The notes under the pieces are model-generated. The model saw only the letters and a list, made by a program, of their open reading frames with translations, did not search any database and was not told the origin of the DNA. Position numbers and translations under genes: made by a program. A stretch of DNA of 64,000 nt from Zeus faber (lineage: Eukaryota > Chordata > Actinopteri > Zeiformes > Zeidae): assembly GCA_960531495.1 (NCBI GenBank), contig OY482848.1, positions 18,505,458 to 18,569,457 on the forward strand. Direction: 5' to 3'. Shown here one piece after another: positions 17,163 through 20,100 of the stretch. Numbering within the stretch: the stretch's first letter is position 1; every line of letters starts with the position of its first letter.

Positions 17163-20100
17163 TTACGTGAATCTATTTTTTCCAGAACCCCTATTAACCA
17201 CTGCATACCGAGAACACCCTACAAGACCTGCTGTTTTGGAGATGCTCTGACCCAGTCGTCTAGCCATCACAATTTGGCCCTTGTCAAAGTCGCTCAGCTC
17301 CTCGTCCTCTGGGTCTCGCTTCCGCTTCTCACCTTTTCCGGCCTCCGCTTCTGCAGGACGAGAAGATTTCAAATGTCAGTCAGGTTGACTGACTCTGTGT
17401 TCATTTTAACACACTAGCAGACTCAATATCATAACGACATGATACTGCTGACAAATAATAAATGACAATATTGATAGGAAAGGGCGCCTGGATCGGGGCG
17501 GGGGACCCAGGTAGGAATGTGCGCGATAGGTCAGCTAGTTGATGAAACGTTGCTACCCTCGCTCGTCTGCACCATAAATGCTCAGTCAGTTAAACGTATT
17601 ATTATTTAACTAATGTACACATTTAAATTACACATTGACATAATTTGCACTGAAATGTCATGTCTTCCTAGTCAAATGTTTATAAAAAAACGAGCATCCG
17701 TTACTAATGTCAACAATGCCGGATAGACAAACTACATAAATAATAATAAAATGAAAAACATCAATTCATAGCTGCGAGCAAAGACGGAAGAGCCCAGCGC
17801 CCAATGCCTGCCCGCCCGGCCGGGTGCGGGAAATGTGCCGTACGGAAGATCGTTTTCCAGATGTTGGCGTTCCCTCGTAGAGGGACCCCTCACCGGGCGC
17901 ACGATAGTACCCGAAAGATGGTGAACTATGCCTGGGCAGCGGCATTTAAAACACAATTTGGTTATTGGAGAATGTGATTAACGGTATCAAATGGCTCTCA
18001 AAATATACGCAATATTTTTTTACAATATATGCAATCTTTTTTTCCCTGACTTTTGGACAAGAAGACTAGTCTAGGTTTAAACTTCCGCTTATACGGCAAT
18101 TAGTCATTAAGAACATCCCTAGACCCAGGGCATTAAGGCCGAGACATGGTTCATTGTAAACTCTGCGGGTGTTCGCTGTGCACTGTCTATAGCGGTGGTT
18201 GGCTGTTGTTCAGTAATAGTAAAAGAGGGTGGCACACGCCGGCCTCTTTTACTATTACTGAACATCTTACTATTTTACTCAAATTTCACTGAGCTACTCA
18301 TCCCAGTTCCCGAGCCACACACACGCCATAAAAAAATAAGTAATAAAAAAAATAAGTAATAAAAAAAATACATTTGTTAAGGGCTGGTGAATAATGGTGT
18401 GATAATTCATATTCTTTTGTCAATAGTTTTCAATAGTTATTTTGTAATTTGTAACTTTGTTCATTCGCTATCAAGTCAAATGCGGAAATACATACAGGAC
18501 CCAAAAGAAGCAGGCCAATCACAGTGCTTGCTGTGCTGCATGTTTTGATGCACGACCATAAATCTGCCTGGAGCACTTGAGGGAAATGGTGTACAACATA
18601 CAACATGATGCTGCCATCGTCCAGCGTATGCGAGTAAAAATATTTTCATATTTCAAGGGATGTAGTATGTCTTCCTGGTGCTTTTCTCCTACTTTTTGAT
18701 GCATACTTTGGGTTTGGACATATTAAACACACATTTGGCAAACTTAATAGTATTCTAGTGTGCCATAATATCCGCTTCCTCAGCTGTTGTTTTTCACCGT
18801 GCTAACGGATGTATATGAGTATCAGTGCATTTAAATTACACATTTTCCAAATTTTGATAGTGTGTCATTTCTGATAAGAAAGATAAATATTAAGTGAAGG
18901 CTACACAAGGGTGTTGATGGGATTAATTAATGCATTTCTATCAGTTTTAACATCGGTTCTTTCTGGCTTCAGAAAACACATTTTTATCTAAAAAGACAAA
19001 TAAAGCAGTTAACACTGACCATCTTCATCCTTGTCGTCATCGTCATCATCATTATCCACTTCCCTTTCCTGTCCAAAGTCTTCCTCCTTAATGAAAGAAT
19101 GGATAAAATGATACACCACGCACCAACAGAGCAGCTGGTTCCTCAGTCTGAACCTGGTTAATACCATTGATAAAACAAGCAAAAACAAGGAAAAGGCCCT
19201 TTACATCCTCCTCTCCGCTGCCCTCCTCGTCATCCTCCTCTCCTTCTACCTCCTCTTCCTCCTCCTCCTCGTCATCCTCTTCCTGGTCAAAGTCCTCCTC
19301 CTCCCCGTCCTCTTCCTCCTCCTCCTCTCCCTCTGTAAAGCCAAGTGGAACGCAGCTTGTTAGTCACAGGAAAACAGCAGCAGCAGCAGCAGCAGCAGCA
19401 GAGAGCCACGGTACACACAACTGAGGTTCTTCATTTCTTTCTTATTTGATTGCAAATTCAATCATTTTTACCCTTTTTTTGTTGGAATCATTTTCTTTCA
19501 CATGCAAAACATTTCATGCGTAGTTTTTAATTTGTTTAATTAATTTGGGAATACATTCAGTTGACATGAGACTCTGGTATTAGAACATTATATGATTATT
19601 TCATTCCATCTCACAAGGATATCTTTCCCCTTGACTTTCTTGATATTCTTTCCAATTTTTACAAATATATATTCTCTTACTCCAGTTAACTAAAGATACT
19701 TATTCCAAGGGGATGTTTAGCTGGCTGAGACATAGACAGCGGTTTGATACTGCAGACAAAATGAAATTATTCGGAGTCGCTTTGAACAAAAGCGTCTAAA
19801 TGCTAAATGACCAAATGTAATTAATGTTATTTAGCATTGGTTAACAATTTGCAGTAAGTTGACCCAGTATCCATCCAACAATGTATAATATTGATTCATA
19901 ATTTTTCTCTTTGAACACTTTGACTGAGACTTTAAGTCTGTTGTTACTGCGCAAATTGTTTTTAATTTTTGAAAGTTTTTTGAGCTAGAAGTATCTGAAA
20001 CGCGACGGCAGAACGGCAGAATGCACAGACATGGTTGAGGTCTCGTTAGAACCAAGACGTATTAGACGTTTGAGTTTGATCAATATTGACCTACATTTGG

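Follow-up and report, generated by a model that had tools for sequence, protein, structure and literature searches.

A tandem anp32b duplicate of Zeus faber with an open reading frame that ends in a probably accidental Tc1/hAT tail

The window, the 64,000-nt stretch of Zeus faber DNA analyzed here, contains two copies of anp32b that lie head to tail on the minus strand, together with open frames for TrmO and forkhead domains; we take these neighbors to fit the neighborhood of human ANP32B. Copy 1 (10089-2888) is intact, and its seven exons (10089-10036, 7482-7333, 7223-7101, 5717-5552, 4244-4117, 3998-3926, and 2964-2888) comprise 771 nt and close with the expected acidic native end, DDDDEDDD. 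Copy 2 (25531-17163) also has seven exons, which are open over 864 nt (287 amino acids plus a stop) with GT donors and AG acceptors at all six introns, as the preliminary description of this locus had stated. Exon 1 of copy 2 (25478-25531) is followed by exons 2 (24174-24323) and 3 (23955-24077) of the LRR domain, by exon 4 (22254-22407), in which the LRR part ends and the acidic tail starts, and by the acidic exons 5 (19205-19332) and 6 (19020-19086). In copy 1, exon 4 is 12 nt longer and exon 6 is 6 nt longer; both coding indels are multiples of three and lie in acidic repeats, where slippage favors threes. The outermost trace of the duplicated unit that we found is an upstream flank of copy 1 (12072-12238, minus strand), which has its homologous counterpart ahead of copy 2 at 26772-26984. 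Among solved structures, the best match to exons 1 to 4 of copy 2 is ANP32B (2ell_A, E 2.5e-83), ahead of the chains named ANP32A, and this sequence match bears out the earlier view that copy 2 is an anp32b paralogue. Compared with ANP32B (PDB 2ELL and 8R1J), copy 2 keeps the acidic stretch and, directly ahead of its transposon tail, the nuclear localization signal-like KRKR, whereas the native DDDDEDDD of copy 1 is missing and is replaced by a 45-residue Tc1/hAT tail.

The last exon of copy 2 (17163-17350, minus strand) follows the anp32b frame up to KRKRDPEDE, continues into 111 nt of an abundant Tc1-like transposase ORF (17302-17192), and runs through 31 nt of a third repeat to a TAA stop. 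Homology between the copies stops at 2913 in copy 1 and 17299 in copy 2, and homology to Tc1 begins at 17302, leaving a junction of four bases, AGGA (17299-17302), that anp32b exon 7 and the Tc1 ORF have in common. The shared stretch may originally have been five bases, given that both parents read AGGAT here and copy 2 reads AGGAG, with a G at 17298; all Tc1 copies readable at that point (19 of 19 in one comparison, 11 of 11 in another) have T as the fifth base. GAT is an in-frame codon in both parents, so the join in copy 2 is in phase, and the Tc1 transposase segment that had been described after KRKRDPEDE does continue the host exons in the genomic frame. The reading of other Tc1 copies includes SRYAVVSTYQKWSKEG; copy 2 lacks the transposase ATG and the codons that open it, and its Tc1 reading breaks off after SRYAVV. 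A 107-nt query from the Tc1 part matched at least 39 other places in the genome at 94-97% identity, a lower bound given that the best 40 of 2253 candidates were scored (all genome searches covered the assembly of 803 Mb in 153 contigs). Judged by sequence, the resemblance of the pieces of this exon is not due to chance, given that each of them is recognizable. A join would be in phase with one chance in three, and an open tail is then expected since the Tc1 segment was taken from within an ORF. We considered that an assembly error could have attached unrelated repeats to exon 7, given that the junction lies among repeats and was seen in a single assembly. This seems very improbable in view of the junction microhomology, which is common in end joining, and of intron differences of up to 18%, which show that the copies are not haplotypes of one locus.

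The third repeat (16900-17193, minus strand) begins with TAGGGGT and is presumably hAT-like, a family name that we judged from its end. It is joined directly after the Tc1 sequence GGTTAA, with its start at about 17193, and it supplies the closing residues RGSGKNRFT and the stop, which confirms the earlier reading of how the frame ends. A 211-nt query over the Tc1 end gave 40 listed matches, namely, itself, 12 to the third repeat (73-84% identity), and 27 to the Tc1 end alone; among these, no locus besides the query held Tc1 and the third repeat together. The start of the third repeat in the 12 other places, judged by eye, is TAGGGGT in 3, has one base changed in 5, and is unrecognizable in 4, with unlike flanks before it. 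By Tc1/mariner anatomy, the point after SRYAVV presumably falls inside the third, recognition helix. Four of the seven Tc1 copies compared first have a readable frame here, and they read SRYAVVST or SQYAVVST (three copies) or SQYAVVNT (one copy), versus SRYAVVNRG in copy 2. The helix-turn-helix (HTH) of copy 2 is therefore cut rather than complete. The Pfam HTH_23 profile covers 6-34 of 50 positions in the fusion (E 0.019) and 5-47 of 50 (E 7.8e-5) in an unfused Tc1 stretch assembled from the compared copies; neither match reaches the curated threshold of 24.6 bits. Modeling of the tail as an HTH fold had been proposed; the single-sequence AlphaFold model was duly obtained and is poor, with a mean pLDDT of 56.5 and one helix of at least four residues, which is weak evidence either way. 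A comparison of the tail with PDB sequences gave no matches up to an E value of 10. The final 45 residues are mildly basic (8 K/R and 3 D/E) and are probably disordered.

The Tc1 stretch of copy 2 differs from the majority sequence at 5 of 111 positions (4.5%), compared with a mean of 7.3% (range, 1.9-12%) for 20 other copies, 4 of which are lower. The comparison copies were chosen by another segment of the element: 29 loci were given, 23 held the segment, and 20 had at least 60 comparable sites. By this measure, the Tc1 piece appears to be in the ordinary range, on its less diverged side, and we saw no sign of selection on the tail in this comparison among paralogous Tc1 copies of one genome. 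A recent capture under selection was also considered, from the 94-97% identity to the best matches and the 4 of 111 differences from a 13-copy majority; we rejected it, given that most of those copies had been chosen for similarity and that the piece is otherwise ordinary. Noncoding divergence between the two host copies is 9.1% (241 of 2635 chained sites, with conversion tracts included and the 8425-7678 alignment left out). Half of this value is about equal to the divergence of the Tc1 piece, which suggests that the duplication and the Tc1 join may be of similar age. The duplication breakpoint itself may even have joined exon 7 to a Tc1 element upstream of the gene in one event, a model to which a same-orientation Tc1 between the copies (13283-12611) lends some support; against it, a comparison of seven Tc1 loci with the window found no Tc1 upstream of copy 2, although the model predicts one there; the lone match in that region (27860-27739) is by eye a GT-rich simple repeat. 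The sequence at 12611-13283 (minus strand) shares its family and orientation with the fused piece. It is a 3' Tc1 portion with an internal deletion of about 200 nt relative to other copies, and it may or may not represent the rest of the same element. On its far side, this remnant adjoins another repeat-like sequence (GGGGACCTA).

The native 3' end is absent next to copy 2. A query spanning the last exon and 3' untranslated region (UTR) of copy 1 (2330-2960) gave five matches: the query locus, a 48-nt piece of exon 7 in copy 2, and three of about 60-63 nt elsewhere, one of which adjoins another ANP32-like gene on contig C8. No second copy of the native 3' UTR was found in the assembly with this query, for which very common words were skipped, such that tiny remnants could escape. 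We considered that copy 2 might be transcribed with its Tc1 exon unused, through read-through into copy 1 and splicing of exon 4 or 6 to exon 5 or 7 of copy 1, which would restore a normal ANP32B end. The head-to-tail arrangement on one strand and the missing native end fit such a transcript, as does the phase of copy 2 exons 4 and 6, which end in phase 1 and are matched by copy 1 exons 5 and 7. We nevertheless regard it as unlikely, given that the pyrimidine tract of the exon 7 acceptor is about equal in copy 2 and copy 1 (11 and 10 of 16, respectively). Two partial ANP32-like matches were also seen (L026, G000:C7:25313283-25313423, and L028, G000:C22:17446636-17446740); one of this pair has an internal stop, and the other is 35 residues long and lies about 7 kb from another ANP32-like gene. 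From sequence comparison, the genome may hold further decayed or partial ANP32 copies.

The divergence between copy 1 and copy 2 is a mosaic along the gene. The copies differ at 1 of the 200 sites directly ahead of the ATG. In the exons, the differences number 1/54 (exon 1), 11/150 (exon 2), 1/123 (exon 3), 4/154 (exon 4), 2/128 (exon 5), 2/67 (exon 6), and, as far as the junction, 5/52 (exon 7). In the introns, they number 4/96 (intron 2), 0/120 at the start and 18/237 at the end of intron 3, 20/110 at the start and 26/392 at the end of intron 4, 0/118 (intron 5), and 6/155 at the start and 22/121 at the end of intron 6. Intron 1 is of unequal length in the two copies, and its homologous part is 84.7% identical. 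Runs of complete identity to copy 2, introns included, were observed at window positions 10303-10145, 7870-7689, 7217-6980, 5726-5604, and 4116-3978. Amid divergence of up to 18%, complete-identity runs, including one that lies immediately ahead of the start codon, probably represent gene conversion tracts; introns within identical tracts are as alike as the adjoining exons, which favors gene conversion over coding constraint. The longest identical run comprises 244 sites, 238 of them within one alignment and 6 from the next, and such a length was reached in 0 of 2000 shuffles; this test used 6 of the 13 alignments between the copies, ignored regional differences in constraint, and included exons, and it cannot by itself separate conversion from constraint. 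On this pattern, gene conversion from the intact copy 1 can account for the good state of the copy 2 exons.

The same consideration applies to selection on the coding sequence. The pairwise dN/dS, a comparison that the preliminary description had called for, is 0.35 (bootstrap, 0.16-0.75; at least 1 in 0.6% of resamples; 242 codons with 15 nonsynonymous and 11 synonymous differences), which taken alone suggests constraint and is hard to read given gene conversion between the copies. Thirteen codons before the junction differ in amino acid. Polarization, which left out six differing codons in or next to the acidic part, was obtained for five codons (12, 19, 20, 38, and 148), all in the LRR part, and all five are changes in copy 2, with copy 1 agreeing with ANP32B. 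Both copies differ from ANP32B at codons 30 and 35, and the T of copy 2 at codon 35 is also present in the paralogue on contig C3, so the differences need not all be changes in copy 2. The absence of stops says little, given that the probability of no stop under neutrality, counting substitutions only, is 0.60, 0.36, and 0.15 at 2, 4, and 8% divergence, respectively. Splice donors, by the position weights used here, score lower in copy 2 than in copy 1 at four of six positions (6.76 versus 8.04, 7.17 versus 11.12, 7.13 versus 9.34, and 3.03 versus 3.22, the last pair differing by only 0.19), equal at two, and higher at none. Transcription of copy 2 is possible, given the near identity of the 200 nt above the ATG to copy 1 and the AATAAA motifs at 16499 and 16384, past the stop.

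A real domain capture would mean that an ANP32B-Tc1 chimera is expressed and that the HTH remnant provides a new contact with DNA or proteins. The open frame, usable splice sites, in-phase join, retained KRKR, and dN/dS below 1 are consistent with this reading, and capture of a transposase HTH by host genes is, as had been noted, already known: Caenorhabditis F-box A2 genes carry the N-terminal HTH of a Tc1/mariner transposase in frame, with a proposed role in protein contact (PMC12062965). There, the HTH forms a full three-helix fold and is N-terminal; the genes form a multicopy family that is expressed in the germline and shows signs of purifying selection, and even this HTH showed no DNA binding in gel-shift tests (PMC12062965). 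The HTH of copy 2, by contrast, is C-terminal, cut, single among the copies found, and known here from genomic sequence. The cut after SRYAVV, the weak HTH_23 match, the low-confidence model, and a tail on which no sign of selection was seen do not sustain the earlier suggestion that copy 2 gains a partial DNA-binding fold. The ordinary divergence of the Tc1 part, an exon intactness that conversion can explain, and the drift of splice donors and LRR residues in copy 2 weigh further against domain capture, which we consider quite unlikely. We hold it equally doubtful that an expressed paralogue with a Tc1-derived partial HTH alters the targets or sites bound by the chaperone. A further parallel is dm-W of Xenopus, which arose by partial duplication of a gene and took its final coding exon from a DNA transposon; unlike the tail of copy 2, which comes from transposase coding sequence, that exon comes from a noncoding part of a hAT element and raises DNA binding in assays (PMC9250109). 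Copy 2 thus resembles, in its sequence, a first step of domain capture, with an in-frame transposon exon but without a complete HTH. A literature search of titles and abstract openings, with most subscription journals outside its range, found no ANP32-transposase fusion among the papers listed. We know of no earlier chimera of this type; if domain capture were true, copy 2 would be the first known to us, and if expressed and kept in relatives, it would represent a new kind of histone-chaperone chimera.

We favor, with a probability of roughly 0.7, the reading that copy 2 is a truncated tandem anp32b duplicate with an accidental Tc1/hAT tail. Under this reading, anp32b was duplicated in tandem, and copy 2 would then have been deprived of its 3' UTR and of the terminal part of exon 7. 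A break in exon 7 would have been joined through 4-5 nt of microhomology (AGGA/AGGAT) into a Tc1-like ORF at its sixth codon, GAT, in the same phase by chance. Some 110 nt farther along, the hAT-like element would later have inserted into, or been fused with, the Tc1 piece, cutting the HTH and supplying the present stop. Copy 1 would have overwritten patches of copy 2 through gene conversion, largely accounting for the healthy exons, and a transcribed copy 2 would encode an LRR-acidic protein that closes with 45 residues of transposon remnant. Homology that ends at 17299 where Tc1 starts at 17302, a native 3' UTR for which no second copy was found, intron identity of 118/118 and 120/120 beside stretches with 20/110 and 22/121 differences, and the changes in copy 2 at all five polarized residues and four donors argue for this sequence of events. 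Against it stand the open frame throughout, the dN/dS at face value, the signs that expression is possible, a Tc1 stretch somewhat less diverged than the average copy, and the T at codon 35. On balance, decay seems a better description of the tail than the birth of a DNA-binding protein. Copy 2 illustrates legibly how the frame of a truncated duplicate can stay open through an in-phase transposon join and patchy gene conversion. It also cautions that tandem copies with open frames and a low dN/dS can be mistaken for a fusion gene under selection.

Elsewhere in the window, a different Tc1-like transposase (58478-59359, plus strand) has a 294-codon open stretch with HTH_Tnp_Tc3_2 and DDE_3 domains and is flanked by MYVC-type tandem repeats at 57527-57977 and 59504-59927. 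A UnaL2 LINE 3' element lies at 60061-60114 (plus strand).
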